A DNA stretch of 38,510 bases from a virus. The stretch is taken from positions 1-38,510 of IMG/VR virus record IMGVR_UViG_3300044727_000048, one strand, 5' to 3'. A model generated the notes under the pieces. That model did no database searches and had not been told where the DNA came from. It worked only from the letters and a program-made list of their open reading frames with translations. A program made the translations under genes and the position numbers. This document shows, piece by piece, positions 1 through 32,802 of this stretch; position 1 is the stretch's first letter, and each line of letters starts with the position of its first letter.

Positions 1-63
1 GCGGATACTTGTTCAATATCGCGAACAACCAAAACATGCCGATTGTGGGAAGTTACGGACCCT
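1..63. repeat. Terminal direct repeat, left copy (circular junction)
   Basis: These 63 bases are identical to 38448-38510. An open reading frame running off the right end continues in the same frame here and encodes one coherent protein. The simplest reading is a circular assembly whose ends overlap, with a unit of 38,447 bp. The physical phage could be circularly permuted or have other ends; the repeat length alone fits an assembler overlap better than a biological terminal repeat. Confidence 0.9.
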
Positions 64-1316
64 CCGACAGTTTCTCCGCCGATCGAGGCCGCGTCGAGGA
101 AGCCCTGTATGGCCGCCTTAATCCGCAACTCGGGTTGGAGCAGCAGCATATCGAACAACAATTAGCCGACCAGGGTATCAGATACGGATCGGCCGCGTAT
201 CAAAACGCGATGGACAGCTACAACAGGCAAGCGAACGATGCGCGCCTCGCGGTGACGCAAACCGCGGGCCAGGAACAGCAACGAATGATGGACATGGCCG
301 CCAAACAGGCCGGGTTTCAGAATGCCGCGCAGATGCAGGACTTTCAGGAAGCGCAACAGCGCACCCAGGAATACAACCGGGCATCAACCTCGAAATTTCA
401 GACCGAAATGCAGCAAGGACAATTTGTTAATTCCGCGCAGCAACAAGCCTATCAACAGGCATTGGGCAAGGGTACGTTTGCAAACGCCGCGCAAGAGGCA
501 GCCTATCAACAAGCACTGGGACGGGCTTCATTCGCCAATCAGGCGCAGCAGGCTGCCTTCGGGCAGGAGCAGGCGCGCGGGTCATTCGCCAATCAGGCAC
601 AGCAATCGCTCTATGACCAATTGCAGGGCAGGGGCGCCTTTGCCAATCAGGCGCAGCAGGCCAATTTCAATCAGGCCGCACAGCGCGAGCAATTCTACAA
701 TCAGGCGATGTCTCAACAATGGGCCGGACAGCAGGCGCAAGCCTCATTCCAGAACCAGCTTCGCCCGCAATATCTGTCAGAGCAATATGCTCGTCGCAAT
801 CAGCCGATCAATGAGATTTCGGCGCTGTTGTCTGGCTCGCAGATACAGCAGCCCGGTTTCATGCAAACGCCGCAACAGCAAATTCCGTACACGGACATTG
901 CAAATTTGTTCAATCAGAACTTCAGCCAGCAATTCCAGAACTACCAGCAGCAGAACACCAATTATAACCAGCTTCTCGGCGGGTTACTCGGCGGAGCTGG
1001 CAACGTGGCGAAAGGCTATTTCTCCAATCCAAGTCTGTTCTCCGACCGCCGCATGAAGGAAAACATTCATCGTGTGGGCACGGTATTTGCCGCCACGCCG
1101 CAGCCAGTGCAAGAGGTGGGCGACGTTGACAGCGACGAGGTGAAAAGGCTTCCGATTTACAAGTTCTCATACAAGGATGATCCGTCGAGCATCAGCCACA
1201 TCGGCCCGATGGCGCAGGACGTTGAGAAGATTGATCCGGGTGCCGTGGGCTCGGTCGGCGGGCGCAAGACGATTAATCCTGAGCGGGTTATGGGCTCGAT
1301 ATTGAGGGCGGCATGA
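1..1316 (+). CDS. S74-chaperone virion protein, 3' part (continues from 37874-38447)
   Basis: This is the C-terminal two thirds of a 629-aa protein that starts at 37874 and crosses the junction; the TTG at 9 is an internal Leu codon, not the start. The middle is very Gln/Ala-rich, with repeated units of the form G-x-FANQAQQ-x-x, probably helical or fibrous. The last ~90 residues form an intramolecular chaperone (Peptidase S74-like) domain beginning at SDRRMKENI, followed by LPIYKFSYK, GPMAQDVEKI and a final INPERV segment. In that family the chaperone trimerises the fibre and cuts itself off before the conserved Ser, here codon 1041-1043 (residue 539). Role inferred: tail fibre or virion-associated protein. 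Its TGA overlaps the next gene's ATG (ATGA at 1313). Confidence 0.85.
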   Translation, partial: GYLFNIANNQNMPIVGSYGPSDSFSADRGRVEEALYGRLNPQLGLEQQHIEQQLADQGIRYGSAAYQNAMDSYNRQANDARLAVTQTAGQEQQRMMDMAAKQAGFQNAAQMQDFQEAQQRTQEYNRASTSKFQTEMQQGQFVNSAQQQAYQQALGKGTFANAAQEAAYQQALGRASFANQAQQAAFGQEQARGSFANQAQQSLYDQLQGRGAFANQAQQANFNQAAQREQFYNQAMSQQWAGQQAQASFQNQLRPQYLSEQYARRNQPINEISALLSGSQIQQPGFMQTPQQQIPYTDIANLFNQNFSQQFQNYQQQNTNYNQLLGGLLGGAGNVAKGYFSNPSLFSDRRMKENIHRVGTVFAATPQPVQEVGDVDSDEVKRLPIYKFSYKDDPSSISHIGPMAQDVEKIDPGAVGSVGGRKTINPERVMGSILRAA

Positions 1317-3076
1317 GCGACACCTATGACAGCAATATTTTCGGCGGCAGCACGGGTCTCTCGTATGAGGACCTCAAGCGCAGGCGTGCGATTGCACAGG
1401 CGCTAGCGGCGAAAGAGCACGGCTATCCCAAGAACATAGGCGAGGGCATTTTCTCGCTTGGGCAGAGCGTTGGCGACATTCTATCAGAGCGCGGACTAAA
1501 GCAGGATGAATTGAAGCAACGAGTTGCAGAAGAAAGGCTGATTAATACGCCGCCGCCGGTCGGATATACGCCTGCGACCACGGCGCCTACTGCGGCTACG
1601 TCCATTGCGCTGCCGGCCGGTCCGGCTTCGCGCCCGCCACCGCCGCCCGCGCCTGAGCTTCCGCCCGGGCCGCCAGTGGAGCGAATAGCGGATATTCCCA
1701 CAACGCCGTCTCCGGATATGGCGGCCGCTATTCCGCCTAATCTCATCAGCGGCCAGGACATGACACAGGAAGCGCCCCCACTCTCGGGCGGCTTTGCTCC
1801 TGGTTCAGCCCCGCGTGATCGTGTTGCTAAGGCTCTGATGAGTGCTTCTCTTTCTCCGCAGGGGACGGAACCAGGACCGGCGCCTAATTCACTTCCTACC
1901 GGATCATTCATGGCTGCGCCCCAGGTTGCGCCGCAGATGGCGGCGGCGGGCAATCCTCCTATCCCGACAGATATTGCTCCGATGCCGGTCCAGGTAACAC
2001 CGCCCGCAAGAGGGGGAATGTTCAATCCGTCGAATGTTCCTATTCCAAACGAGGCGGCGCCGCCAATCAAGAATGCGGAGCCCAAGCCGACGCGGCCCGG
2101 TGTTGCCGGGCCTACGCCGGCAGAAGAATATTTGCTAAGGCAGAAGAACAACCCGAATTTGTCCGAGAGTACTCGCGCCATATTTGGGGCTCGATACGAG
2201 ACGGAACAGAGCTTCCGTAAATTGAAGGAACAGCAGCAGGATACGGATTTTACTTATGCGCGCGCCAAGGCCGATGAGAGTGAAAAAGAGCGCGATAAGT
2301 TGTTGCGTGAGCAGCGGGTGAATAATGTCGACTATCTGAATAAGCAATTGTCGGCACAAAAGACAATGCTGGATAACGCCAAAACGCCTTTCGAGATACA
2401 ACAAATCAAAGGCAATATCGAGAAGACGCAATCGGAAATCGTCAGGCTCGGTCAGCAGATCAGTGCGGGCGAGGCGCCTACGACGAAGGAATATCAGAAC
2501 AACCTCTTGCAATGGGATGCGAAGACGGAAGGTTGGAAAACTCTCAACCCAAACGTCAACACGCAGAATATCAAACTGACTTCGGAGGAACACCATGCCC
2601 TGAATTATTTCATGAACAGCTATGTTGCCTCCGGGCAACTTGGCGATCAGAAGGCGCTTGTAGGTCTTGCCGACAGCATGAAAAACAAAATCCCGGTATT
2701 CGGCAATGACTGGGTTGCGCCAGAGTATCGGCTAATCAAGAGCGCGGCCGATGCTTGGATTATGAACACGTTGCGCCATCAGAGCGGCGCCACGATCAGG
2801 CCGGAGGAAACGAAAGACTATTATGAATTGTACTTCCCGCGATTTGGCGATACGGAACAGGACATTGCCGCCAAGGCGATAAGGCGGAAAACTCAGGAGG
2901 CGGCACTTGCGGCCGGTCTGGGCCCGGTAAAAGCCTTGGCCGATGAATTTGTTCAAAAGCGTGAGCGGCAACGAGTGGGAGATATGACTTCAACGCCGCA
3001 CGGGACAACGCAGGTGGATAGAGAGAGCGGAAAGCAGCGCATCAATATCCATGGCTACTGGGAGGAAATCCCGTAA
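1313..3076 (+). CDS. Virion protein, Pro-rich plus coiled coil
   Basis: The product has 587 aa and I recognise no enzymatic motif. Residues about 75-270 are Pro/Ala-rich and low in complexity. Residues about 285-385 are highly charged and Gln-rich and look like a long coiled coil; the C-terminal ~200 residues look globular. The start is fixed by the ATGA overlap with the S74 gene, and the stop overlaps the ATG of the next gene (TAATG at 3074-3078). Its place among large late genes between the S74 protein and another big Ala/Gly-rich protein suggests an internal virion (DNA ejection) protein, as podoviruses encode in this region. That role is inferred from position only. Confidence 0.6.
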   Translation: MSDTYDSNIFGGSTGLSYEDLKRRRAIAQALAAKEHGYPKNIGEGIFSLGQSVGDILSERGLKQDELKQRVAEERLINTPPPVGYTPATTAPTAATSIALPAGPASRPPPPPAPELPPGPPVERIADIPTTPSPDMAAAIPPNLISGQDMTQEAPPLSGGFAPGSAPRDRVAKALMSASLSPQGTEPGPAPNSLPTGSFMAAPQVAPQMAAAGNPPIPTDIAPMPVQVTPPARGGMFNPSNVPIPNEAAPPIKNAEPKPTRPGVAGPTPAEEYLLRQKNNPNLSESTRAIFGARYETEQSFRKLKEQQQDTDFTYARAKADESEKERDKLLREQRVNNVDYLNKQLSAQKTMLDNAKTPFEIQQIKGNIEKTQSEIVRLGQQISAGEAPTTKEYQNNLLQWDAKTEGWKTLNPNVNTQNIKLTSEEHHALNYFMNSYVASGQLGDQKALVGLADSMKNKIPVFGNDWVAPEYRLIKSAADAWIMNTLRHQSGATIRPEETKDYYELYFPRFGDTEQDIAAKAIRRKTQEAALAAGLGPVKALADEFVQKRERQRVGDMTSTPHGTTQVDRESGKQRINIHGYWEEIP

Positions 3077-4926
3077 TGGCCGACTGGGTTACCGTTTCAG
3101 AGCTGCCATTGCCGACCCACTCTGCCTATACCGGGCCGGACCCGACCGTGGGCGATTTCGCGCGTGCGGCGGACCCGACTTTTGGCCTTGCGAACCGGGC
3201 TGCAGCTGGTCTCTCGGCATTGACGGGCGGGAAGGGCTACGACGAGGCTCTTGCTGAGCAGGTCAAGCGCGACGAGGCGGCCAAGGCTCGCCTTGGGCCG
3301 CTCAAGACCGGCGTGGCCGAAGTTGTGGGCGGGGCGTTGCCTGCCCTGGCCTCGGGCGGGGCGGGGCTTTCGGCCGCTCCGCTTGCCGCAGGGCGGGGCC
3401 TTTTGGCCAAAACAGGCTTGTACGGGGCAGAGGGGGCCGCCTATGGCGCCGCGCAGGGCGCCGGCCATACCTACAGCGGCGAGCCTTCAGACTACGCCAG
3501 GAACGCCGGTATGGGTGCTCTATTTGGGTCTGGTGCGGGTGTTGCCGCCCCGGTGGCCGGAGCGCTTGCGTCCGGCGCGTACCGGGCGGGCGCGGGCATG
3601 TGGGGGGAAATCCCCGATGTTTTGGCGCGAGGGGCAACGGCTGATCTGGCGGGCTTGCGGAACTTGGCGAATATCCCCGGCGCGATGCTGCCAGATGCGG
3701 GTCCCTCGATGCGGGGCGCTGCGCAAGGTGTTGTCGTTGGTCCTGGGGGCATGGGGCAGACCGCATTGATTAATGCCCTCACGGACCGCAACGCGGGCTC
3801 GGTTCCGCGCATTACGGGCGAGTTGAACAGACAGATCGGCCCCGCAGGCGTCCCAAGCGAAGGGCAAGCTGCAATTGCCGATCGGATGCGGGCAATGTCT
3901 CCCGAATATCAGCAGGTGCTCCTTAATTCTCGCGCCGTAGACACGCAGCCTATTGCAGACTGGGCAGAGGGTGCAGTGAATATGGAGCGCGGCCCGGCGC
4001 AAAAGGCTATGCGCGAGGTGCGGCGCATGCTCGATATTGCCGATGCTCCGGGTGTGCTCGATCCTCATCCCGAGGTCTTGCAAAAGACGCGCACCGCAAT
4101 TCGCGCCATGCAGGATGAGGCGACGAATGCCGATGAAAAGAGAATGCTAGGGGAGGCGTACGCCCACGTCACGCAGGAATTGCATAATAAGGTTCCCGGC
4201 ATTGCGGCGCTCGACAACCGCTACACCGAATTGGCCAGACAGCATGATGCATTAGGGCCACGAAGCCTCGGATCGCGTATTTTCGACACGGCGCGAGAAA
4301 CGGTAGTCCGCCCCGCCGAGTTTGATGCCGCTATGGCTCAGGCCGCGCAGCCGAAGGGTGTCAATCTTGGTCCGTCGCTTGAGCCGCTGCGCTTGCGGGA
4401 CGCGGCGCGCGCGGAACTCGACCGCATCGTTGGTACCGGAGCCGATGATCTGCGCAAGCTTGAAAATGCTCTTGCAACGCCCGCCGATTATAATTCGCAG
4501 AAGCTCAAGAGCATGTTCGGCGAGGATAAGGGGCAAGCGATTTCGGATTTGTTGACACGCGAACGAAAATTCCGGGACACATATCAACAGGTCGTGCATG
4601 GCTCTAAAACCGCGCAAACGACGGCATCAAAGGAAGGGTTCGAAGCCGGTCAAGGGAAAATCCCGGTGGGAGCGGGCGCAACAGGTTTGCTCTTGCGCGG
4701 CGCGCAAGAGGGCCTCAATATGATGAGGTCCGGCGCGGCCCAGTCCACGCGCGACCGTATTTCGCAACTGATGGCGGAGCGCGATCCTGCCGCAATACAG
4801 GCGACGGCCAATAGATGGCTGGACATCGGGCAGGCCCGGGACAAGCGCGCTGAAATGGTCCGACAGCTTATCAGGCAAGGAATTATCGGCGGCGGCGTTG
4901 CGCCGGCAAATTCGGGAGGGCAGTAA
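3076..4926 (+). CDS. Putative internal virion / DNA-ejection protein
   Basis: This 616-aa protein has an N-terminal third (about 85-200) very rich in Gly and Ala, of the kind that could insert in membranes, for example around VVGGALPALASGGAGLSAAP. The rest is mainly helical and charged. It is translationally coupled to the preceding gene (TAATG) and is followed after 2 bases by the tail-fibre gene, itself preceded by a GGAGGG ribosome site inside this gene's end. I did not find lysozyme or transglycosylase active-site motifs, so a channel-forming or ejection role is inferred from composition and neighbourhood. A host-derived prophage-type hypothetical remains possible. Confidence 0.55.
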   Translation: MADWVTVSELPLPTHSAYTGPDPTVGDFARAADPTFGLANRAAAGLSALTGGKGYDEALAEQVKRDEAAKARLGPLKTGVAEVVGGALPALASGGAGLSAAPLAAGRGLLAKTGLYGAEGAAYGAAQGAGHTYSGEPSDYARNAGMGALFGSGAGVAAPVAGALASGAYRAGAGMWGEIPDVLARGATADLAGLRNLANIPGAMLPDAGPSMRGAAQGVVVGPGGMGQTALINALTDRNAGSVPRITGELNRQIGPAGVPSEGQAAIADRMRAMSPEYQQVLLNSRAVDTQPIADWAEGAVNMERGPAQKAMREVRRMLDIADAPGVLDPHPEVLQKTRTAIRAMQDEATNADEKRMLGEAYAHVTQELHNKVPGIAALDNRYTELARQHDALGPRSLGSRIFDTARETVVRPAEFDAAMAQAAQPKGVNLGPSLEPLRLRDAARAELDRIVGTGADDLRKLENALATPADYNSQKLKSMFGEDKGQAISDLLTRERKFRDTYQQVVHGSKTAQTTASKEGFEAGQGKIPVGAGATGLLLRGAQEGLNMMRSGAAQSTRDRISQLMAERDPAAIQATANRWLDIGQARDKRAEMVRQLIRQGIIGGGVAPANSGGQ

Positions 4927-4928
4927 AA

Positions 4929-6161
4929 ATGCCGCGCGTTGCAGGAATTTACTCTCGACCGGCCGGGACTGACGGCGTTCCGAACGCGACGATCAGCTCG
5001 ACGGCCTACAACGCGAATGTTGCCGACGTCGAGCAGGACCTAAATCTTCCGCGCCCGGTGGTGGCGGGCGGCACAGGCGCGAGCAGCGCGGACACTGCGC
5101 TTGCCAACTTAAGTGCCGAGAAGGCAAACCAGATTGTCACCAATTTTGATACGCAAGTCTGGATTGCGGGTTCCTTCTCCGCGGCATCGACGGCGACTAA
5201 TGGGCCGGTCTCGGGACACGCAATGTCCGGCCTTGCCTTCGTGGTGGACAGCAGCAATATCATCATCGAAGCCTCCGACAATGACGTGACGGGCGGCATG
5301 CCGACCCGGTACGTCAGGCAAAAGAAAGCCGGAACCTGGGGCGCGTGGGTTGCGGATACCGGAGCACCCTTGCCGTGCGCCGGTTTGCTATCCTTCGTAA
5401 GCGCAACGGCGATTGCGTTCAAACCATTCAACGGCGACCGCATAAAGATCAACGGTGCCCTGTATCAGATACCGACGGGCGGCATTGCTGGCGTTGCCAA
5501 TACGAGTGTGTACGTCGGAGGTGTGGCAGCGCAGAACCTTGCAGCAAGCACGTTTTATTACGTCTATGCCTTCGTCAATGCGGGCGTGGTGACTGCGGAC
5601 TTTTGGACGACAGCGCCAGCGATTAGCCTGACAACCGGAAATGTTGGTACCGAGATTAGATCAGGCGACGATACCAGGTCTTTAATTGGTATGATTAGAA
5701 CCAATGCATCATCGCAATTTTCCGACAGCCTTCAAAACCGATTTGTGCGCTCATGGTTCAATCGGCAGGCTCAGAGGCTTGATTTCTTCGGAGCCTTTAC
5801 CGCGCAACGCACTTTGAATACTACCGGCATTGTCGAGGTGAACATCGAAATTCGAAGCAATTTTCTTGTGTGGGCTGGCGAAACAGTCAGCGCCAATCTT
5901 AATGCCTTCGGCTGGAGTAATAGCGCTGGCGTAATTAATTATGTGGCGATCGGGTTTGACGGAAACGCTAATGCCGGGTGGGTGGGGGTGGGTTCTGATG
6001 TGAATTTAAATTATGCAAATTATTCGTCCTCTGGCAGCTATGGGGGATTTTCCGAGGGCACCTGGCATTATGTCACTCTTTTAGGGTCAATCACAGTCGG
6101 CACTTTGACCCTTGGCAGCACCACGTTGTTTTGTACCTTAAGCGGCCATATCGCAATCTAA
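4929..6161 (+). CDS. Tail fibre / tail-spike-like protein
   Basis: The product has 410 aa. The N-terminus reads MPRVAGIYSRPAGTDGVPNA, then ISSTAYNANVADVEQDLN, then PRPVVAGGTGASSADTALAN. This is a head I know from many phage tail-fibre proteins, where it anchors the fibre to the virion. The remainder is Ser/Thr/Gly/Asn-rich beta-type sequence with no catalytic motif that I can identify, typical of a receptor-binding part. It starts 2 bases after the upstream gene with GGGAGGG as ribosome site. Next to the S74 and ejection genes, it is the likeliest host-recognition protein, together with the beta-helix protein at 21078. Confidence 0.7.
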   Translation: MPRVAGIYSRPAGTDGVPNATISSTAYNANVADVEQDLNLPRPVVAGGTGASSADTALANLSAEKANQIVTNFDTQVWIAGSFSAASTATNGPVSGHAMSGLAFVVDSSNIIIEASDNDVTGGMPTRYVRQKKAGTWGAWVADTGAPLPCAGLLSFVSATAIAFKPFNGDRIKINGALYQIPTGGIAGVANTSVYVGGVAAQNLAASTFYYVYAFVNAGVVTADFWTTAPAISLTTGNVGTEIRSGDDTRSLIGMIRTNASSQFSDSLQNRFVRSWFNRQAQRLDFFGAFTAQRTLNTTGIVEVNIEIRSNFLVWAGETVSANLNAFGWSNSAGVINYVAIGFDGNANAGWVGVGSDVNLNYANYSSSGSYGGFSEGTWHYVTLLGSITVGTLTLGSTTLFCTLSGHIAI

Positions 6162-6178
6162 GTGAAAAGGAAACGGCA

Positions 6179-6472
6179 ATGGCGTTAACATACACTCAAG
6201 CGGCAGACCTCATGATGGATACCGGTTTCCGGGGACGTATCAAGGTCGCATGTCTCAGATTTGCCAACTACATCTATGACGAGGTATCGAATACTCCCGC
6301 CCACTCTAGCCGCATGCGGTGGGCGCAACGTGCGCTTCAAATGCCGGATGCGGTGGCCGCCGATGTGCATGCCGAGGTTGTGATGGACCCGCAAGTTCAG
6401 TTGGACGGCGCGGCGATTACGGATGCCGCGTTGCAGACCGCGGTTGAAACGTGCGTCAACAAGATGCTATAA
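6179..6472 (+). CDS. Conserved small phage protein (97 aa)
   Basis: The ATG at 6179 follows AAAAGGAAACGGCA, a good ribosome site; an upstream in-frame start at 6131 would overlap the tail-fibre gene and lacks a site. The product starts MALTYTQAADLMMDTGFRGR and contains a central RMRWAQRA and a DPQVQLDGAAITDAALQ segment. I have seen this architecture in short phage proteins of unknown function next to tail or lysis genes. There is no signal peptide or membrane segment. It lies between the tail fibre and the small membrane-protein genes. Confidence 0.75.
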   Translation: MALTYTQAADLMMDTGFRGRIKVACLRFANYIYDEVSNTPAHSSRMRWAQRALQMPDAVAADVHAEVVMDPQVQLDGAAITDAALQTAVETCVNKML

Positions 6473-6482
6473 GGAGGCTGCT

Positions 6483-6647
6483 ATGCTCATGATTATTCTG
6501 ATTATCTTCCTTGCGCTCATCCTGCTCGGAGGTGTCGGGCCATGGGCACCGATGGGGTACGGCTATGGCTACGGCCACGGTCCAGTCGGCATCCTCGGGC
6601 TGATCCTGATTGTGCTGGTCGTTGTGCTTCTGATGGGGCGATTATGA
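6483..6647 (+). CDS. DUF3309-like small membrane protein, holin candidate
   Basis: This 54-aa protein consists of two hydrophobic segments (about 2-19 and 36-52) joined by a Gly/Tyr/Trp loop with GYGYGYGHGP and ends in GRL. The pattern matches DUF3309, a tiny two-helix family common in alphaproteobacterial chromosomes. The ATG at 6483 has a consensus AAGGAGG site 5 bases upstream. Its TGA overlaps the ATG of the next membrane-anchored gene (ATGA at 6644). Two transmembrane helices, small size and a coupled membrane protein make it the best holin candidate, but DUF3309 has no proven lysis role. Confidence 0.75.
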   Translation: MLMIILIIFLALILLGGVGPWAPMGYGYGYGHGPVGILGLILIVLVVVLLMGRL

Positions 6648-7156
6648 TCGACTATAACATAATTATCACAGCGGCTATTGTCGCCGTTCCAACGGTCTGC
6701 GCGACTACGATTGTGCCGATCTGGCTTGACCGATCAAGGCGGATGGACCGGCGCTTGGAGCGATTTGAGGACCGTGAGGCTTTGGCATTGGCCGCCAAAA
6801 AGGCTGAGGAAGTGGCTGAGCAGGCGCGGTTAGTCGCAAAATTGCTGGTAGTGAAAACCGAAAAAATGACGCAGCAAACGGCCGACCTCACGACGAAAGT
6901 CGAGAAGGTGGGGGAGGTAGGAAACATGGTCCACACACTGGTGAATTCAAAATTGACGGAGACGATGAAAAAGCTGCGTGATGCCAAAGCGGAGACGCTG
7001 GATTTGATGAAAAGTTCTTCTCCGGATAACAAGGTTTCAATCGGCATTCTTGCCGACGAACTGCGGGCCTTGGAAATGGAGCTGGGCGTGCGCGCCGTTG
7101 CCACGGACAAGGCCGCGGCCGATCAGAAAATAGAGCAGTCAGACAATAAGACGTGA
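6644..7156 (+). CDS. N-terminal TM plus coiled-coil protein (holin/spanin candidate)
   Basis: The 170-aa product starts MIDYNIIITAAIVAVPTVCA, one hydrophobic segment at about 5-26, followed by Arg/Asp-rich sequence and a long heptad-like helix (about 35-150) with many Lys, Glu, Ala and Thr. This is the shape of a membrane-anchored coiled coil. It is coupled to the DUF3309-like gene by ATGA. Spanin subunits and some holin-associated proteins look like this, but there is no lipobox and no nested outer-membrane partner that I could find. Its last 18 bases overlap the 3' end of the convergent minus-strand HNH-like gene. Confidence 0.65.
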   Translation: MIDYNIIITAAIVAVPTVCATTIVPIWLDRSRRMDRRLERFEDREALALAAKKAEEVAEQARLVAKLLVVKTEKMTQQTADLTTKVEKVGEVGNMVHTLVNSKLTETMKKLRDAKAETLDLMKSSSPDNKVSIGILADELRALEMELGVRAVATDKAAADQKIEQSDNKT

Positions 7157-7603
7157 CGGCAATTTCCGCTTCGGCCATGATATCTTCCGTCGGTCGCGCC
7201 GCGCCGCCCGGTCGCGCCGCACCGCCTCTCTAATACGCATGCGTTGTGTGCGCTTGAGTTCTCCCACGTCGCTATCCCTTGTCGTGACGGTGCGCTGTGC
7301 TCCCGGCTTGCGGCCGGTGGTTTTGGTTTGATGATCTTCCTTCAGGAGCAGAACCAAATAATCAAGATCGCCCTGCGGCGGAATGAAGTCGTGCGCCTCG
7401 GTGTCATACTTGCGAAGCGCCAGAGCGGGACTGTGATCGACTTCGAGATTGCGAGCCCGCACGCCTGCCGCTGTCCACCTGAGCAATTGCACAAGCCCAT
7501 TACTATTGCCGCTCATGCGCAGCAATACCTCGGATTTTGCATGCGATGATATTGGCTTGCGAAACTGGCTCACATTGAATGTGCCAACTTCAAGGATTGT
7601 CAT
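7139..7603 (-). CDS. HNH-like endonuclease, Cys-free type
   Basis: This is the last gene of the leftward operon. The start at 7603 (MTILEVGTF) is chosen because its ATG overlaps the TGA of the DnaA-domain gene and GGAG lies just upstream; a start five codons earlier (7618) is possible. The protein of 154 aa has a VDHSPALALR motif at about 55-64 and KEDHQTKTTGRKPGA at about 88-102, then TVTTRDSDVGE and a basic tail ending in WPKRKLPSR. Rhizobial proteins with the same DH...H...K-TTGR-PGA arrangement are annotated as HNH endonucleases. Zinc-binding Cys pairs are absent. Possible roles are packaging-associated nicking or recombination; activity is inferred. Confidence 0.6.
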   Translation of the reverse strand: MTILEVGTFNVSQFRKPISSHAKSEVLLRMSGNSNGLVQLLRWTAAGVRARNLEVDHSPALALRKYDTEAHDFIPPQGDLDYLVLLLKEDHQTKTTGRKPGAQRTVTTRDSDVGELKRTQRMRIREAVRRDRAARRDRRKISWPKRKLPSRLIV

Positions 7604-8121
7604 GACTGCCTGCTCCATTTTGCGCGACGGTAGAGATACTGACGCGGATCATTGCCGATTTCGGCGATGCGTTTGCGGATCAAATCCTTGAGCAACTCGA
7701 TTTCGCCGCGCACTAGCGGGTTATTCTCCACAAGTTTTGCGATTTTATTGCGTGCGGAAAGAAGGGTTGTGTGATCGCGGCCGCCAAATATACGGCCAAT
7801 AGCGGGAAGGCTGCTGCCGGTCATTGTAATTGCAAGATATATGGCAATATGACGGGGACGCACAAATTCTGCATGGCGGCAATCTCCTGTAAGATCGCGC
7901 CATTTCATGCCATAAAATTGTGCAACGATGGCTCCGATTGATTGAATTGGCGCAAAAGGCTTGAATGGCGCATCGGGCGGCGGCGGCAACGGTGGCGGTG
8001 TCTTAGGTGGCGGGGCCTCGCAGATGCGCGGGCGCGGGACTGGAGGAAACATTCGCTTATGAACCTCGCGATAGTGTGCGCGCATTTCCGAAACTGATGT
8101 GAATTGTCTCACGTCGCTCAC
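7600..8121 (-). CDS. DnaA domain IV (DnaA-box binding) protein
   Basis: The protein has 173 aa. After a Pro-rich linker (about 25-58), residues about 59-150 match DnaA domain IV: a FVRPRHIAIYLA segment and the signature GGRDHTTLLSARNKI (GGRDHTT at 113-119), the helix-turn-helix that contacts DnaA boxes. There is no AAA+ ATPase domain, so it is not a full initiator; it could bind an origin, recruit host machinery or compete with host DnaA. The start is GTG at 8121, overlapping the TGA of the upstream gene (GTGA). It sits downstream of the recombination genes in the leftward operon. Confidence 0.85.
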   Translation of the reverse strand: MSDVRQFTSVSEMRAHYREVHKRMFPPVPRPRICEAPPPKTPPPLPPPPDAPFKPFAPIQSIGAIVAQFYGMKWRDLTGDCRHAEFVRPRHIAIYLAITMTGSSLPAIGRIFGGRDHTTLLSARNKIAKLVENNPLVRGEIELLKDLIRKRIAEIGNDPRQYLYRRAKWSRQS

Positions 8122-8621
8122 GTATCACCTCTTTTCGCGTTGGCCTTGAGTTCATCAGTGGAAATCCCGATCATGCTGGCGGCAAGATCGAGCACGGCGA
8201 CTTTTGAAGCCTGAAATAGATCATGTCCCATCGCGCTTTTCGACTGGGACATTGGTGTGAGGACTTGGACCGTTGTGCCAGAAATCGTAATGATTGCAAA
8301 GGGATGGCGCCCTCCAATCGCGGTTGCTAGCACTTTTGCATCTTTCTCGGTATCCATCGGATAGAGGTCCTGCTTTGCGTACCCGCATTTCATCAGGCAC
8401 CAGGCGCGGAAGTGTTCGAAGCATTGAAAGCGTGCTTGTGTGTTCTCGGGCAGATTGTTGTAGGCTATTTGTAGAGCGGCAAAATAATGATTGTGAGAGG
8501 CTATCGAGCGTTCGTCGTCCAGCACGAAGCGATGAACGCTGCCGACTTTTAGTTCCTCTCTCATTGGGTGGGCTGGCTTGAGCACTTCGCCGGTCCACAG
8601 GAGTTTGATTGCCCAGCTCAT
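8118..8621 (-). CDS. Conserved alphaproteobacterial phage protein
   Basis: The product has 167 aa and its function is unknown to me. Residues about 38-80 (ERSIASHNHYFAAL, then LPENTQARFQCFEHFRAWCL) and a late SQSKSAMGHDLFQASK segment resemble a hypothetical family that recurs in alphaproteobacterial phages beside exonuclease and annealing genes. No membrane segment or nuclease motif is seen. It lies between the YqaJ-type exonuclease (14 bases upstream) and the DnaA-domain gene (4-base overlap), so a role in replication or recombination is plausible by context only. Confidence 0.75.
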   Translation of the reverse strand: MSWAIKLLWTGEVLKPAHPMREELKVGSVHRFVLDDERSIASHNHYFAALQIAYNNLPENTQARFQCFEHFRAWCLMKCGYAKQDLYPMDTEKDAKVLATAIGGRHPFAIITISGTTVQVLTPMSQSKSAMGHDLFQASKVAVLDLAASMIGISTDELKANAKRGDT

Positions 8622-8635
8622 GAAGCTCGCCTCTG

Positions 8636-9250
8636 CTAATCGTGGGTCAATTGTCTGTATCGCTTCACGCGCGTAACAACGCTGGCAAGCTCGACGTGAA
8701 AATTTGCAACGGCATCGGCTAGCTTGGCGATGTATGCTTCATTGCGGGCGATATTGTAGCGGATCAAGGGTAGCCCAGGCCAAAAGATTGCGAGGTCACA
8801 CCATTGGCGGCCCGTCACCCAGAGCGAACCTTGACACTGTGCCATATGCTCCTTCGGCACATTGCCGGTTAGCATGCGTTCAATCATCAGTTCCGGGAGT
8901 TGCGTTTTGAGTTCGAGCACCCCGGCCGCGCCGATCAGAGCATCAGGCGAGGCACCGCATTGGTGTTCTTCGTCCAAAACAAAGCCGACATTGGTAAGAT
9001 CGTGGTTCGTCATAAACGAATATGCATCTTTCGCTTGTTGCTCCATGGCGATGCCGCGTTCCATGTGATGATTAGTGTAGGTTTCGGCCGGATTGCCGGT
9101 GATTGCCTCCGCTGCAAGCTGCAACATGTATTTGCGGCGCGTCTTGCCTTCGCCCGCCGCGAGAATATCGGAGAAACGGGAGGCGGTGGGAATGCCGCAA
9201 CGAGCTTTTTTCCACACGTCGTCGCCTTGGGTGCATTCGACGATCTTCAT
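8636..9250 (-). CDS. YqaJ / lambda-exonuclease-type viral recombinase
   Basis: The 204-aa protein carries the PD-(D/E)XK nuclease core of YqaJ-like phage exonucleases. GIPTASRF (19-26) and ERGIAMEQQAKD (64-75) come first, then GASPDAL with D103, LELKT with E113 and K115, and a QCQGSLWVTGR helix at about 138-148. Family members digest double-stranded DNA 5' to 3', leaving single strands for an annealing protein. The ATG overlaps the stop of the TOPRIM-ERF gene (ATGA at 9247-9250), so exonuclease and annealase are made as a coupled pair, as in Red-type systems. Confidence 0.9.
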   Translation of the reverse strand: MKIVECTQGDDVWKKARCGIPTASRFSDILAAGEGKTRRKYMLQLAAEAITGNPAETYTNHHMERGIAMEQQAKDAYSFMTNHDLTNVGFVLDEEHQCGASPDALIGAAGVLELKTQLPELMIERMLTGNVPKEHMAQCQGSLWVTGRQWCDLAIFWPGLPLIRYNIARNEAYIAKLADAVANFHVELASVVTRVKRYRQLTHD

Positions 9251-10866
9251 GAGGCGGTTCCTTCCTTTACAGCGAGCTCTTGTACGGCAATTTTGCTGTT
9301 GAGGGCAGTCATGGCGATCTTGAATTGGCTCTGCGTCATGTCCTCTATTTGTTTTATCCGCATAAAGACAAGAAATTTTGCAATATCGGAATTAGATTTT
9401 GTCACCAGGCGGCGGATTGCCTGCGCTTCGGCCTCGTTAATCAAGGGCTCTGGCTGGCGTGTAGCCGCATTGCCGTCGTCATCCTCGCCCACTATGGCGA
9501 TGTTAAAAATCATTGTTTGCAGATATCGGCGGCCGTATGTCATTGACGATCCAAACCCATGCATTGCGGTTTTGTTCGGATTGCCCTTGACGCCAAGGCG
9601 ATCCTCGGGGAGGTCTACCTGAAAACGTCGGCTATCGCCAGCGATGTGCCCCACATCGCATACCATGCGGGTGTGATCGGGCTTTGGGCAATCAACCGTG
9701 CTGAAGGAAAGAAAAAATCCGTTCTCAGTGATGATCGGCGTCAGTATCTTGCAGATTGTTTCTAGACGCGCATATTTCGATCGCGTGTCATTATTCTGTG
9801 CATCCCGCATTATGCGCGGAATAGCGCGCTGCACCGCGACCATGGCGGCGTTGTATGCCTGCCGCTGCTGCTCAAGCTTCTGCGGAAGATAATCAGAAGC
9901 GACTTGCTGCTCAAGCTTCTGCGGAAGATAATCAGAAGCGACTTGCTGCTCAAGCTTCTGCGGAAGATAATCAGAAGCGACTTGCAGCGGAGTGGGCGGT
10001 GTATGTACTTGCTCATTCATATCTGATTTCCTTGGATTGAGAGGGAGCGGCTGCGGCACAAAGTCAGGGGCGGCCTCGATCAATGCAAGAAGGCGTTCGG
10101 TTGAAGCCTGTTCGGTCCTGCTGGCAAGCCAATCCGAAACGTCTGCGCCCTTCGGCATATCGTGCCAATGCTTCGACAGATCAAGCCGCCGCACGCGCTT
10201 GGCAATGCCGAGCGATAGCTTGCAGATAGCCTCGGCATGTGCGTAGCCAGCGGCGTCATTATCATTGAATACGACGATATCGGCGCCGCACAATTGTTTG
10301 CTGTGCGCCTTCGTCCACTTTGCCAGCTTTCCCGGTTCGCTGGCGCCATGCGCGTTGCAGGTGGCGGGAATTCCCATGGCCCAAAGATTGTCTACGTCCT
10401 TCTCGCCTTCGACACAGGCGATCACGCGATACGGGTATATGCCGGAGGGGTTCCTGAATTGAATAGCGCGGTGCACTTCGTCAATGCGGTAGAGACGAAC
10501 ATTACTTTTTATGTCTTTTGATAATCCCTTGCTCCATCCGTCGCCGTTCTTTCGTTCAAGCCAAAATTTCGGCTCGCGGCCGGGCAGGTTGCGCACTTTG
10601 CGGAATAGCACTTTGCCAGCGGCGTTGCGGTAGACATAAGTCTGCAATTCATGCGTCTGCCGCTCCGGGCCGGTCCAGGCGCAATGATTGCACCCCCAGC
10701 GCACGCTCCCATCATTACCGATGGTGACGCCGAGCACTTTCAATTTCTGATGCGCCGGATGGCGTTCGGCTGAGCACTTCGGGCAGATGGTGTAATGGCG
10801 GCCCGGAGCCGTGGTCGCGAGCGCGATCCCATGTCGCTCCAAGAGGTCTGCGGCGCGGATAGGCAT
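9247..10866 (-). CDS. Zn-finger/TOPRIM primase-like protein fused to ERF annealing protein
   Basis: This 539-aa open frame joins two usually separate proteins. Residues 1-270 are a primase-type module: zinc ligands C28, C31, C59 and C62, then a TOPRIM core with VEGEKD (E153) and FNDNDAAG (D202, D204). Residues about 334-470 match the ERF family, with YARLETICKILTPIITENG, then GFGSSMTYGRRYLQ and the following GEDDDG. ERF proteins anneal single strands made by the neighbouring exonuclease. Between them lie three 13-residue repeats VASDYLPQKLEQQ. M283 (ATG at 10020) is preceded by AAGGAAAT and could start ERF alone, so one long and one short product are possible. A missing stop codon, real or by sequencing error, is the alternative. 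Confidence 0.85.
   Translation of the reverse strand: MPIRAADLLERHGIALATTAPGRHYTICPKCSAERHPAHQKLKVLGVTIGNDGSVRWGCNHCAWTGPERQTHELQTYVYRNAAGKVLFRKVRNLPGREPKFWLERKNGDGWSKGLSKDIKSNVRLYRIDEVHRAIQFRNPSGIYPYRVIACVEGEKDVDNLWAMGIPATCNAHGASEPGKLAKWTKAHSKQLCGADIVVFNDNDAAGYAHAEAICKLSLGIAKRVRRLDLSKHWHDMPKGADVSDWLASRTEQASTERLLALIEAAPDFVPQPLPLNPRKSDMNEQVHTPPTPLQVASDYLPQKLEQQVASDYLPQKLEQQVASDYLPQKLEQQRQAYNAAMVAVQRAIPRIMRDAQNNDTRSKYARLETICKILTPIITENGFFLSFSTVDCPKPDHTRMVCDVGHIAGDSRRFQVDLPEDRLGVKGNPNKTAMHGFGSSMTYGRRYLQTMIFNIAIVGEDDDGNAATRQPEPLINEAEAQAIRRLVTKSNSDIAKFLVFMRIKQIEDMTQSQFKIAMTALNSKIAVQELAVKEGTAS
9865..9981 (-). repeat. 39-nt tandem repeat, three units
   Basis: Three in-frame 39-nt units (9865-9903, 9904-9942, 9943-9981), nearly identical, encode VASDYLPQKLEQQ three times just before the ERF domain. 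The identity shows recent expansion, probably by slippage or recombination. Because the unit is a multiple of three, the frame is preserved and the linker simply lengthens. Confidence 0.95.
10018..10055 (-). promoter_or_regulatory. Internal translation start of the ERF half, copy of primase leader
   Basis: Read on the minus strand, the bases before the internal ATG (10020) run GCCGCTCCCTCTCAATCC then AAGGAAATCAGAT. Before the primase ATG (10866) the leader is GCCGTCTCCCTCTCTCTC then AATCCGAGGAACCCTTC. The shared CTCTCAATCC-RAGGAA core and flanks suggest the ERF start retains, or has copied, a gene leader, supporting independent initiation of ERF inside the fused frame. Confidence 0.6.
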
Positions 10867-10900
10867 GAAGGGTTCCTCGGATTGAGAGAGAGGGAGACGG

Positions 10901-11260
10901 CTACGGAGCCCCGCAGCTCTTGAGCGCCTCGCGTGCGATCTCGCCGATGCCCTTCAGAGCATGTCGTGCCGCGTCGGCACTGACCGCGTCGAGCGTCATG
11001 CCGCCGGCTGCAAGCAGCGCACGTGCCTTCTCCAGGTCAATCGGCGGGAACACCTTCTCGGGATAGGCGCGGCTCCAGGCGTCGATCTGGCGCAGCGCTT
11101 CGGTCAGTACGTCGAGCTTGTCGTCCTTCAAGGCGCGGCTCCAGGCGTCGATCTGGCGCAGCGCTTCGGTCATTACGTCGAGCTTGTCGTCCTTCAAGGC
11201 GCGGCTCCAGGCGTCGATCTGGCGCAGCGCTTCGGTCAGTCGCTGTCGCCAATTGTGCAT
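10901..11260 (-). CDS. Hypothetical protein with 22-residue tandem repeats
   Basis: This is the first gene of the leftward operon, 119 aa. The N-terminal half is three tandem copies of a unit starting TEALRQIDAWSRA and continuing LKDDKLDV; the third ends in YPEKVFPPIDLEKAR. The C-terminal part, ARALLAAGGMTLDAV then ADAARHALKGI, resembles small rhizobial phage proteins of unknown function. No enzyme motif is present. A divergent promoter candidate lies about 75 bases upstream; the ribosome site is weak. It precedes the primase-ERF gene by 34 bases. Confidence 0.65.
   Translation of the reverse strand: MHNWRQRLTEALRQIDAWSRALKDDKLDVMTEALRQIDAWSRALKDDKLDVLTEALRQIDAWSRAYPEKVFPPIDLEKARALLAAGGMTLDAVSADAARHALKGIGEIAREALKSCGAP
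11066..11240 (-). repeat. 66-nt tandem repeat (2.6 units)
   Basis: Units at 11066-11131 and 11132-11197 are near identical, with a partial third unit from 11198. Each full unit encodes 22 residues in frame within the hypothetical gene 10901-11260. It is the second in-frame minisatellite in this operon. Confidence 0.95.
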
Positions 11261-11335
11261 GGTTTCATCAATGAAGCAAACCCCCGTTGCCGTCGCGGCT
11301 GCGTCGGAAAGCCCTCGGGGGCTAACGATTGTCCT

Positions 11336-11364
11336 TTCCTAGTCCCAATAATTTCAGAAGTCAA
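11336..11364 (-). promoter_or_regulatory. Leftward promoter candidate for the replication operon
   Basis: On the minus strand TTGACT (11364-11359) is followed after 17 bases by TAGGAA (11341-11336). The -35 is near consensus; the -10 is poor for sigma-70 but shares TAGG with two other candidates here. It would give a leader of about 70 bases before the ATG at 11260. Confidence 0.45.
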
Positions 11365-11373
11365 GCGCCAAAT

Positions 11374-11401
11374 TTGACAGAACCAAAAAATGCGGTAGGC
11401 T
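11374..11401 (+). promoter_or_regulatory. Rightward promoter candidate, divergent
   Basis: TTGACA (11374-11379) and TAGGCT (11396-11401) are 16 bases apart. The -35 faces the leftward -35 across 9 bases as an inverted repeat, GTCAA-N9-TTGAC. If real, transcription would begin almost at the ATG of 11408, giving a leaderless or near-leaderless message. Confidence 0.4.
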
Positions 11402-11407
11402 GGCGCG

Positions 11408-11587
11408 ATGAAATGCTCGAAATGTGGCCGGACGCACAGGCGGATAAGACAGCGATACTGTCCTAAATGCCATAAGCTCTACCAGCGGAAATGGCGGCGG
11501 GGCCAGAGTGTCACACGTGAAACACTGCGGCATGAGGCGCTAGGGCTTGTACGGCTGGCAAAGAGAATACTAGCCCTAGTGGCTTGA
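11408..11587 (+). CDS. Small zinc-finger protein (CxxC...CxxC)
   Basis: The 59-aa product begins MKCSKCGRTHRRIRQRYCPK and continues CHKLYQRKWRRG. The two CxxC pairs (C3, C6 and C18, C21) followed by a basic YQRKWRR helix match a class of tiny phage zinc-ribbon proteins (C-x-x-C ... RYC-x-x-C ... Y-x-R-x-W-R). They are thought to bind nucleic acid, but no function is established. There is only a weak purine-rich site upstream; initiation may be leaderless from the promoter candidate just before it. Confidence 0.7.
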   Translation: MKCSKCGRTHRRIRQRYCPKCHKLYQRKWRRGQSVTRETLRHEALGLVRLAKRILALVA

Positions 11588-12139
11588 CACACGACCCCTG
11601 TTGCGGGATGCTCAGATGCTTTTTTGAGGTAAGTGCCCTGGACCGTCCCCGCTTGCGGTCTATGTTGCTACCTAGACACTCTGCAAGTCGCCGGGGCGAG
11701 CCTCAAGAAAAGCAAACGCCCCGCCGATTTCTCAGCAGGGCGTTCACTTGTCCGAGACTGGTTGGGGAGACCTTTGGATCGGACGGTTCACTTAGGCGAA
11801 TATAGCAGCCTAGACCGTCCAAATCAAGGCCTCCCCCCAAAATCGGAAGTTACCGCCCGGAAATCACCGGGGAGCGTTGGGTGTAGGGGAGTTGCTCCCC
11901 AGGTCGGATGCGCTAATACAAACGCCGATCACAGGCTATTATAGCCCGCCCCCCTGCCCGCCTCCGCGGGCCTGCGCCTGGCTTTGCCAGAAACCTGCGC
12001 AGGGTGCGGTGGGGGGTGGGGGGGTGATGAGAAGAAACAAGCAGTAGCAGAGCGGCTAAGTAAGAAGCGGCTAAGAAAGTGAAGTACAGAGTAGAGGTAT
12101 GTAAGGGGCGGTACACACGCAAAAGGAGAACGATCACAA
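11588..12139. other. Hairpin-rich 552-bp region without a convincing gene; candidate origin/regulatory region
   Basis: I find no coding sequence with a ribosome site here. Visible structures are an AACGCCC/GGGCGTT stem (11715-11744, T-rich on the minus strand, so possibly a terminator for antisense transcripts); GGACGGT...ACCGTCC (11781-11820) with an inner TAGG/CCTA stem; GGGGAG-TTG-CTCCCC (11886-11900); CCCGC/GCGGG (11957-11970); nested CTGGC-TTT-GCCAG within TGCGC/GCGCA (11973-12001); G runs of 6 and 7 around 12011-12024; and a repeated GCGGCTAAG near 12051-12074. A TTGACA at 11584-11589 lacks a good -10. Position between the divergent early operons makes a replication origin or control region plausible; this is inference. 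Confidence 0.5.
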
Positions 12140-12241
12140 ATGTTCACCGAATGGCAGAGGATGACCGCGGGTCAGCGTTTGGAAGCAATCAAACTGCGGC
12201 CGCGCGCTATGTTGCGGCTCCCGGTGATAAGAGCGGCTTGA
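12140..12241 (+). CDS. Possible 33-aa protein or start of a decayed regulator
   Basis: The ATG has a strong AAAAGGAG site nine bases upstream. The short product MFTEWQRMTAGQRLEAIKLR ends soon after at TGA. Its beginning (W..MTAGQRLEAIK) is faintly like the start of GcrA-type helix-turn-helix regulators, and a shifted frame stays open to 12285, so this may be a frameshifted remnant. The overlapping frame 12079-12285 (68 aa) lacks a comparable ribosome site. Confidence 0.3.
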   Translation: MFTEWQRMTAGQRLEAIKLRPRAMLRLPVIRAA

Positions 12242-12293
12242 GTAAATGGAAACCGGGTGTCACGTTTCATTTCACGAACAAATGAGGGCCGTA

Positions 12294-12566
12294 ATGAAAA
12301 CCGGAAAGACAATCGCTTTCGGCATTCTGGAACGCAATTCCGGATGCTGGCGCGATGATGCCCCGCTCGGGGCGCTGATCGACGACATCGCGCGGGAGAT
12401 TGACCGCGCTCGGACTGACCTTGTGCAACAGGTGTTTAATGACCGGTCGCAAGGATATGCCGAAGTTTCCCTTTACGGTAAGAACCTCACCGTGCGCAAC
12501 CCGGAAAAGAATGTGAGAAAGTTTATCTCACAATACGAGAAAATATTGGCAAAGGGGCACACGTGA
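12294..12566 (+). CDS. Hypothetical protein (90 aa)
   Basis: The start MKTGKTIAFGILERN is preceded by GAGGG; ATGs at 12282 and 12246 are in frame but less well placed. The body is polar, with an acidic DDIAREIDRARTDL helix and a C-terminal NVRKFISQYEKILAKG. No known motif is seen. Its TGA overlaps the GTG of the helicase gene (GTGA at 12563), so it is coupled to helicase production and may act with it. Confidence 0.6.
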   Translation: MKTGKTIAFGILERNSGCWRDDAPLGALIDDIAREIDRARTDLVQQVFNDRSQGYAEVSLYGKNLTVRNPEKNVRKFISQYEKILAKGHT

Positions 12567-14029
12567 AAACACTCAGGCCGGATCAAGAGGATGCCATCGC
12601 CAGACTGCGGCAGAAACTCAACACGGGCATTCGCCGCGTTGTAATGATGGGAGCGACCGGGTATGGTAAGGGATTGGTCGCGGCGTCTATAATCAGATCG
12701 GCGCGTGAGAAGGGGAAGAAAGTTTTATTGACCGTCCCCGCAATCTCGCTTGTCGATCAGATGGTGGACGTTCTTTATGAGCAGGGTATTACGGACGTAG
12801 GCGTGATCCAGGCCAGCCATCACATGACGGATTGGTCCAAGCCCGTGCAGGTCGCGAGCGTGCAAACCTTGCAGCGCAAAGATCGACTTCCCGAGTGTGA
12901 TTTGATCCTGATTGATGAGTGTCACATCTTATTCAAATTTTATGAAAAACTTCTATTGTCCCATGAGCAAAGATGCATTCCTAAAATTGGTTTCAGCGCG
13001 ACGCCGTTCACGAAAGGTCTCGGCAAATATTATCAGGATTTGATAATTGCCGCTACGACAGAACAACTAATCGCGGAAGGCAAGCTATCCCCGTTTCGTG
13101 TGTTCGCTCCGTCGCATCCTGACTTGAAAGGCGTGAGAACTCTTGCGGGCGACTATCACGAAGGCGATCTTGCCGACCGAATGAACCAGGCCAAATTGAC
13201 GGCCGACATTATTTCGACGTGGCAGGCGCAGGGCGAGAACCGGCCGACAATTTGCTTTGCGGTCAACCGTGCGCATGCCGCGGCTATTGCGGACCAGTTC
13301 AAGGCGCGGGACATTGGTGCGGGTTACATGGACTGCGAAACATCGCTGGATGAGCGGCGCAATATCCGCAGGCAATTCCTGGCAGGCGAGCTACGGGTGA
13401 TCTGTAACGTCGATGTGGTTGGGATGGGCATTGATTGGCCGGAAGTGTCATGCGTGATCTATGCGCGCCCGACTAAGAGCGAAATACGATATGTGCAGAA
13501 TATCGGGCGGGCACTGCGCACGGCGGAGGGCAAGGTTGACACGATCATTTTGGATCACAGCGATACGACACTGCGGCTCGGATTTGTGACCAACATCAGG
13601 CACGATCAGCTCGACGACGGCGAGCCAAAAGAAAGAGCCCCGGCCAAGATCGCGCTCCCAAAGGAATGCCCGCAGTGCCACTATCTCAAGCCGCCGAGGA
13701 TGGCGGTATGTCCAGCGTGCGGGTTTGTGTCGAAGATTATCAACCGGATCGAGCCGCGGTCCGGAGAATTGCGGGAGCTAACCGGCGGGACGAAATCGGC
13801 TAAGAAATTCCCGGATAGGATTGCTATTTTCGGACAATTGATGTGGTGGGGTCGGCATCGTGGTTATAAGGACGGATGGGCCGCGAACAAATACCGCGAT
13901 CTTTACGGCGTGTGGCCGCGTGGCTGTAGCGGGGCTCCGCATGAGCCTCCGGGCCTTGAGTTGGCGTCATGGATTAGGAGCACGGAAATCCGATGGGCGA
14001 AAAGCAAGAGATTGGAGGCACGGGCATGA
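12563..14029 (+). CDS. Superfamily 2 DNA helicase
   Basis: The 488-aa protein has the SF2 motifs in order: Walker A GATGYGKG (30-37), DECH box (118-121), SATPF (145-149), a motif V-like VVGMGIDWP (285-293) and QNIGRALR (312-319). A zinc ribbon follows with CPQC (369-372) and CPAC (383-386). It is related to the UvrB/RecG/RAD25-type phage helicases that unwind DNA during replication or recombination. The GTG start overlaps the upstream stop. With the primase-like, DnaA-domain and Red-type proteins of the leftward operon it forms the replication set; no DNA polymerase is encoded, so the host replisome must supply it. Confidence 0.93.
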   Translation: MKTLRPDQEDAIARLRQKLNTGIRRVVMMGATGYGKGLVAASIIRSAREKGKKVLLTVPAISLVDQMVDVLYEQGITDVGVIQASHHMTDWSKPVQVASVQTLQRKDRLPECDLILIDECHILFKFYEKLLLSHEQRCIPKIGFSATPFTKGLGKYYQDLIIAATTEQLIAEGKLSPFRVFAPSHPDLKGVRTLAGDYHEGDLADRMNQAKLTADIISTWQAQGENRPTICFAVNRAHAAAIADQFKARDIGAGYMDCETSLDERRNIRRQFLAGELRVICNVDVVGMGIDWPEVSCVIYARPTKSEIRYVQNIGRALRTAEGKVDTIILDHSDTTLRLGFVTNIRHDQLDDGEPKERAPAKIALPKECPQCHYLKPPRMAVCPACGFVSKIINRIEPRSGELRELTGGTKSAKKFPDRIAIFGQLMWWGRHRGYKDGWAANKYRDLYGVWPRGCSGAPHEPPGLELASWIRSTEIRWAKSKRLEARA

Positions 14030-31914: not shown

Positions 31915-32802
31915 ATGCCGGTTAATCCGAAAGACCCCGACGCTTCTCTCGTCCCGTTATTCAAGAACCATGCAATCCCGAATACTGCCAAGAGCGCGAA
32001 GGCGGGCAGGCCGATTTTCGATGACATGGAAGTCTGCGAAATCCGCATCCCCGGATCGAGGGACGTAAAGGTGGTTCCGGCTACTGCTTTCTCGGACTGG
32101 ACCTACGACCAATTTACCGGCGAGCAGATCAAGCGCACCTATGCGGAACGATTTGCAAGCCAGTATCGGCAATTCAAGATGAAAGATGTGCAGACCAAGG
32201 CCGGTACGCCGCTCGAATATGTGCCGTTTCTCACGGAAGGAAAACGCGCCGAGTTGAAGGCGCTGAATGTCTACACGATCGAGGCGTTGGCTCACATCGA
32301 CGGCCAGGAACTCAAGAACCTCGGGCTCGGCGGGCGCGAACTGAAGAACCAGGCGGTTGCCTTCCTTGAGGATACGAGCAAAACCGCGCCCTCAAGTCAG
32401 ATGGCGGCGGAACTCGAAGCATTGAAAGCCCGCAATCAGATATTGGAAGAGGACAACAAGGCTCTTGCTGCCAGGAGGGCAATGCAGGAGAAGGCCAAGC
32501 CGGAAACCCCGCCGTTCGGCAACGCCATGCTCGACCTCGAAGCATTGAAAGCCCGCAATCAGATATTGGAAGAGGACTACAACAAGGCTCTTGCTGCCAG
32601 GAGGGCAATGCAGGAGAAGGCCAAGTCGGAAACCCCGCCGTCCGGCAACGCCATGCTCGACGCTATGAGCGATCCGCAACTGAAGGAATACATCAAGTCA
32701 CAGACCGGGGGGAGGGTGCTTGGCAATCCGGCACGCAAGACGCTTCTGCGCATGGCGGTCGATGCCACGCCGAAGCTATCAGAGGCAGATCAGGTGGCAT
32801 GA
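31915..32802 (+). CDS. Head-associated protein with duplicated coiled coil
   Basis: The 295-aa product runs from MPVNPKDPDASLVPLFKNHA and has an N-terminal globular part. It continues with a helix-hairpin-like EYVPFLTEGKRAELKALNVY followed by VYTIEALAHIDGQELKNLG, and then two 41-42-residue copies of a coiled-coil unit starting LEALKARNQILEED. The end, MSDPQLKEYIKSQTGGRVLG, recurs in phage proteins encoded after capsid genes. A minor head or completion role is inferred. AAAGGAAATGAA precedes the start. Confidence 0.65.
   Translation: MPVNPKDPDASLVPLFKNHAIPNTAKSAKAGRPIFDDMEVCEIRIPGSRDVKVVPATAFSDWTYDQFTGEQIKRTYAERFASQYRQFKMKDVQTKAGTPLEYVPFLTEGKRAELKALNVYTIEALAHIDGQELKNLGLGGRELKNQAVAFLEDTSKTAPSSQMAAELEALKARNQILEEDNKALAARRAMQEKAKPETPPFGNAMLDLEALKARNQILEEDYNKALAARRAMQEKAKSETPPSGNAMLDAMSDPQLKEYIKSQTGGRVLGNPARKTLLRMAVDATPKLSEADQVA
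32413..32661 (+). repeat. Tandem duplication of 123/126 nt
   Basis: Unit 1 is 32413-32535 and unit 2 is 32536-32661, the latter with one extra codon. They are near identical and in frame, doubling the coiled-coil segment of gene 31915-32802. Confidence 0.93.

Follow-up and report, generated by a model that had tools for sequence, protein, structure and literature searches.

Organization of the locus

The window, the whole stretch of 38,510 nucleotides of viral DNA that was analysed, contains on its minus strand one reading frame of 539 amino acids in which a predicted primase core is followed by a predicted ERF annealase. The frame has zero stop codons and is undamaged along its full length, which bears out the in-frame fusion proposed in an earlier note on this DNA. 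The features of the region, with the basis of each assignment, are the following:

8118–8621, minus strand: NinB/Orf-like recombination mediator (phrog_15346, E 4e-33; phrog_319, E 4e-6)
8636–9250, minus strand: YqaJ exonuclease, its start overlapping the ERF stop (PF09588, E 5e-24)
9247–10866, minus strand: fused frame, putative primase core and ERF, 539 aa (one stop-free ORF)
9247–10020, minus strand: predicted annealase of the ERF family, 257 aa; own start codon, ATG, at 10020 (PF04404, phrog_155, fold match, start features)
9866–9985, minus strand: 39-bp × 3.1 tandem repeat (QVASDYLPQKLEQ × 3) in ERF (repeat search)
10021–10053, minus strand: 11-residue linker QPLPLNPRKSD, the translated leader (leader alignment, reading frame)
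10028–10056, minus strand: leader copy 2, within the fused frame; Shine-Dalgarno AAGGAA (alignment to copy 1)
10057–10866, minus strand: predicted zinc/TOPRIM primase module, residues ~1–270 (phrog_6088, phrog_239, AlphaFold2 model, fold match to DnaG and T7 gp4)
10873–10906, minus strand: leader copy 1, 5′ of the primase start, holding the TAG of the upstream gene at 10903–10901 (alignment to copy 2)
10901–11260, minus strand: upstream gene, with 66-bp repeats and a stop codon in leader copy 1; no convincing family match (ORF, repeat search)
12563–14029, plus strand: DEAD/ResIII helicase, a separate gene on the opposite strand (PF04851; phrog_16, E 2e-88)

The operon that holds these recombination genes also encodes, at 7600–8121 on the minus strand, a small protein that bears the C-terminal DNA-binding domain of DnaA (PF08299, E 8e-22). 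Tandem repeats are found at several places in the window. The gene at 10901–11260 carries a 66-bp × 2.7 repeat (11065–11240, 98%), the ORF at 31915–32802 a 126-bp × 2 repeat (32413–32661, 96%), and more short arrays lie at 35640–35702 and 36541–36907. The in-frame repeats in neighbouring genes may reflect frequent repeat expansion in this phage.

The primase and ERF modules

The two modules were modelled apart, each alone. Among the PHROGs, the primase module matches phrog_6088 (E 9e-17) and phrog_239 (E 9e-13); the Pfam family Toprim_2 scores 18.2 bits, which is under its cut-off of 22.1 bits. The AlphaFold2 model of this module, built with 34 sequences, has a mean pLDDT of 86.9, and its best Foldseek match is the DnaG catalytic core (E 5.6e-8). 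VIA-align superimposes the model on the Aquifex primase with a Z score of 15.2 (173 residues, rmsd 4.5) and on T7 gp4 (5ikn) with a Z score of 14.4 (158 residues, rmsd 2.6). In both cases the aligned part begins at about residue 63–73. Judged by the model, the module is a primase module with the RNA-polymerase/TOPRIM core fold of the DnaG/T7 type. The residues E153, D202, D204, D242 and D245 are invariant in 34 of 34 aligned primase sequences, the one from the window included, and we take them to be equivalent to the catalytic residues of T7 and DnaG. The cysteines C28, C31, C59 and C62 are invariant in the four closest sequences; no Pfam zinc family is matched here at E 0.01. A helicase-type domain after the TOPRIM part is absent from the window protein, and ERF stands there instead. 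A remnant of such a domain was sought in the window with the post-module parts of three primase-helicase relatives (L002, L018 and L019), and none was found (best E 0.46).

The C-terminal module, which extends from Met283, matches PF04404 (ERF) over residues 340–472 with an E value of 5.5e-14 and 52.8 bits, compared with a curated cut-off of 25, and phrog_155 with an E value of 1.2e-30. The only two Foldseek matches of its model below 0.001 are Gp77 (E 2e-5) and Sak (E 1.2e-4), both phage annealases of solved structure. On the basis of Pfam and fold, this module is predicted to be an ERF-family annealase. The primase families of PHROGs, PF04404 and the fold matches agree with the TOPRIM and ERF parts that had been assigned to the one frame in the earlier note. 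The same note had placed three 13-residue repeats at the joint of the modules. The repeats exist (39 bp × 3.1, 100% identical), but the array begins 12 residues past Met283, within the N-terminal part of the ERF module and not at the joint. It occupies the place of the conserved segment that precedes the AFNAAM motif in other ERFs, which makes the repeats a part of ERF, not of the linker.

The duplicated leader and the internal start

The leaders of the primase and of ERF, 10873–10906 (CCGTAGCCGTCTCCCTCTCTCTCAATCCGAGGAA) and 10028–10056 (CCGCAGCCGCTCCCTCTCAATCCAAGGAA), align with a score of 35. This is the highest score of 528 gene-leader pairs in the window, the next being 25, and it was reached by none of 20,000 shuffles, the largest shuffle score being 26. 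The core pattern CTCTCAATCCRAGGAA occurs mismatch-free in the window at these two leaders only. The suggested duplication of the leader is thus upheld both by the score, which exceeds those of all other pairs and shuffles, and by the restriction of the core pattern to two sites. The best local alignment stops short of the genes, and the longest identical run common to both copies is about 10 bases. A scan for promoters and terminators gave no signal above shuffles. Apart from the window, the leader motif has a sole match in viral_contigs, at 12045–12069 of L183, which is another phage; it lies before an unrelated gene and directly 3′ of a terminator-like hairpin. As the phage is unrelated and the gene a different one, this match was judged to be due to chance and rejected as a relative of the leader.

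In copy 1 the leader contains the TAG stop codon of the upstream gene, and this triplet aligns with a CAG in copy 2. The CAG (10053–10051) is in frame and forms codon 272; given a copy of the leader, the chance of this is about 1 in 3. A TAG at codon 272 would give a primase of 271 aa, ending just where the conservation shared with the primase relatives ends. Because the TAG of copy 1 is aligned with an in-frame CAG of copy 2, the fusion would most economically have arisen by loss of one stop codon, and we infer this history from the leader alignment. None of the relatives listed has the joint. Recoding of TAG was also weighed, and dismissed because codon 272 is CAG and several ORFs of the window end in TAG.

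The evidence for the primase–ERF fusion comes down to a single base in one metagenomic contig, and an error or polymorphism at codon 272 is its main rival. In that event two ordinary adjacent genes would be present: codon 272 would be TAG in the real phage, or in the greater part of its population, CAG would be a consensus error or a polymorphism, and the products would be a stand-alone primase of 271 aa and ERF. TAG and CAG are one transition apart, the aligned leader copy has TAG, and ERF has a start of its own, all of which suits two genes. The contig nevertheless reads CAG, and a consensus error at exactly that base is a priori unlikely. We consider this explanation possible, if somewhat doubtful. 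It is very improbable indeed that the frame is an assembly chimera of two phages joined at the leader. A chimera is favoured by the likeness of the leader copies, by the metagenomic origin of the contig and by the tandem repeats close by; in our judgement, however, the identity of about 10 bases between the copies is too short to mislead the usual assemblers, and ERF, YqaJ and the NinB-like gene follow the order that is usual in relatives.

The internal ATG pointed out previously was recovered at 10020–10018, where it forms codon 283, with AAGGAA 7 bases 5′ of it. Codons 1 and 283 are the only two of the 13 in-frame ATGs that pair with the anti-Shine-Dalgarno sequence below −4 kcal/mol (−5.9 and −5.4 kcal/mol, respectively; next −3.4). 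On the other hand, of the 503 ATGs on the minus strand, 9.9% pair as strongly as that of ERF. In local structure, the ERF start ranks among the weakest 4% of the 840 windows compared in the region, and none of 200 shuffles folds less well. Since codons 1 and 283 are the sole in-frame ATGs with a good ribosome-binding site, two products from one gene are likely, with predicted masses of 60.3 and 28.9 kDa.

There is about an even chance, in our estimation, that the locus is a two-start gene with a long primase–ERF product and a short ERF-only product, fused by loss of a stop in the duplicated leader. The long product would consist of a primase core of the DnaG/T7 type, the 11-residue linker and ERF, a single-strand annealing protein; initiation at the internal ATG (10020) would yield the short one, which is ERF by itself. 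The change of TAG to CAG at codon 272 would have turned the duplicated leader into the linker, and ERF would have retained both its ribosome-binding site and its ATG.

Relatives, possible role and known systems

The same architecture was looked for in related phages, and no fused relative was found in phages, plasmids or contig loci. In a tblastn search with the whole fusion, 0 of 333 phage records and 0 of 46 plasmid records had one place covering at least 80% of it. That no fused relative turned up among phages, plasmids and the loci listed is in keeping with two separate genes. A megablast of window positions 1–12500 against phages, run for a sister phage, gave zero matches. The viral_contigs were scanned with peptides, profiles and patterns, and genome_contigs were scanned too. 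The profile scans cover the matches listed or the best 80 loci, so that rarer or weaker relatives were possibly missed, and two of those of viral_contigs gave largely the same contigs. As single-sequence queries of viral_contigs, the ERF half, the YqaJ gene and the NinB-like gene each gave zero or one distant locus. The primase query matched 0 of the whole records of 50 of the best 80 ERF loci, in a search run without a known positive; the ERF query matched 3 of the whole records of 50 virus loci from the primase scans.

Among 265 listed loci, many of which are repeats of the same contigs, the primase module was found in 174 and ERF in 92 (tblastn, E 0.001). Only three contain both modules, namely L001, which is the window's own, L181 and L182. 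In L182 the primase module and ERF are on opposite strands. L181 has the closest primase module among the matches listed (47%) and encodes a 708-aa primase-helicase and a 246-aa ERF with a YqaJ-like gene separately on one strand, about 5 kb apart (873–2999 and 7992–10096). The earlier note had held that the fusion would be refuted if relatives always had two separate, normally spaced genes. In L181, the sole close relative with both modules on one strand, the genes are indeed separate, but they are not adjacent. Among the matches listed, ERF relatives stand alone, and none has the primase module in an N-terminal extension. The literature searches, which covered listings and selected passages, gave no description of a primase–ERF fusion. 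The parts of the window protein are known; their combination was unmet in the collections searched.

Besides the window's own, 173 primase-module loci are listed. After 8 that are cut by the locus end were dropped, 165 remained, and 163 of these run at least 150 residues past the module. The exceptions are L012, which is a 61-residue zinc-finger match only, and L265, which is ORF 38 of Salisaeta icosahedral phage 1 (245 aa); the existence of this stand-alone TOPRIM of the same family adds to the case for two genes. In five relatives, the region after the module contains AAA_25 (L002, L019, L013), DUF5906 (L018) or DUF3987 (L007). The continuation of nearly all complete listed loci past the module, the lack of a helicase part or remnant in the window and the strong separate start of ERF are what would be expected if readthrough were simply tolerated, with a fused frame, ERF made mainly from its own start and a fusion without a function of its own; the primase may then be a remnant of a primase-helicase. 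The primase has kept its cysteines and acidic residues, however, and the frame is undamaged from end to end, which makes mere tolerance unlikely.

If the two-start gene is expressed as proposed, single-stranded DNA would be coated by ERF oligomers, some of whose subunits would be of the fused form and could carry the primase to annealed or recombining ends. Together with the YqaJ exonuclease encoded alongside, these subunits would favour recombination-linked replication, and the separate DEAD helicase could provide unwinding. The Pseudomonas phages PS-1 and YA3 pair a DEAD helicase related to that of the window (38%) with a primase without a helicase domain, so that such a primase is not strange. 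Their primase, a protein of the Toprim_3/DUF7146 type encoded 3′ of the helicase gene, has only weak similarity to that of the window (BLASTP E 0.001). Phage 80alpha needs Sak, which belongs to another annealase family, to replicate and form concatemers normally (PMC5499656). Together with the DEAD helicase of the window and its counterpart in PS-1 and YA3, this makes it reasonable that fused subunits in ERF oligomers would bring priming to annealed ends. We infer the mutation, both products, the mixed oligomers and their benefit; that ERF works from its own start with the primase merely attached is equally simple. A bolder proposal, in which a helicase ring has been swapped for an annealase ring and fused and ERF-only subunits share one oligomer that lays primers at annealed strands, as a recombination-primed replication machine from one gene with two starts, seems quite unlikely. 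The earlier idea that one gene links priming to annealing as an economical design lacks support, as none of the relatives searched has the architecture and the TAG/CAG pattern looks more like stop loss than like a conserved design. If expressed, the fusion would be the first primase physically tied to a phage annealase, as far as our searches reach, and the coupling of annealing and priming in phage replication would become testable. It would also offer a snapshot of how new domain fusions may form in mosaic phages, where a leader minus its stop becomes a linker and the downstream gene keeps its start.

The gene order of the window has parallels in phiLM21, VSN-002, phiAH14a and the plasmid pSK06. 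In 4 of these 4, a PF04404 ERF is followed by a YqaJ/lambda-type exonuclease gene, as in the window, and in 3 of the 4 an annotated NinB gene is next. Their ERFs are stand-alone, and the upstream neighbours have no primase annotation. On the primase side, the phage TOPRIM primase-helicases of phrog_239 and phrog_6088 share 47% (L018), 43% (L002) and 41% (L019) identity with the window over the primase module. They go on into DUF5906 (L018) or AAA_25 (L002, L019), whereas the window protein goes on into ERF. ORF 38 of Salisaeta icosahedral phage 1 belongs to the TOPRIM family of the window's primase and has no helicase part; it ends at its own stop and is unjoined to an ERF. T7 gene 4 resembles the window gene in its primase core fold and in a second in-frame start that leads to a shorter product. 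Its C-terminal partner is a ring helicase, whereas that of the window is an ERF annealase, and the internal start of the window omits the whole primase, unlike that of gene 4. The M64L change in T7 gp4 prevents expression of gp4B (PMC12658067, PMC7073461). For a phage primase gene with two starts, the pair gp4A/gp4B is the precedent.
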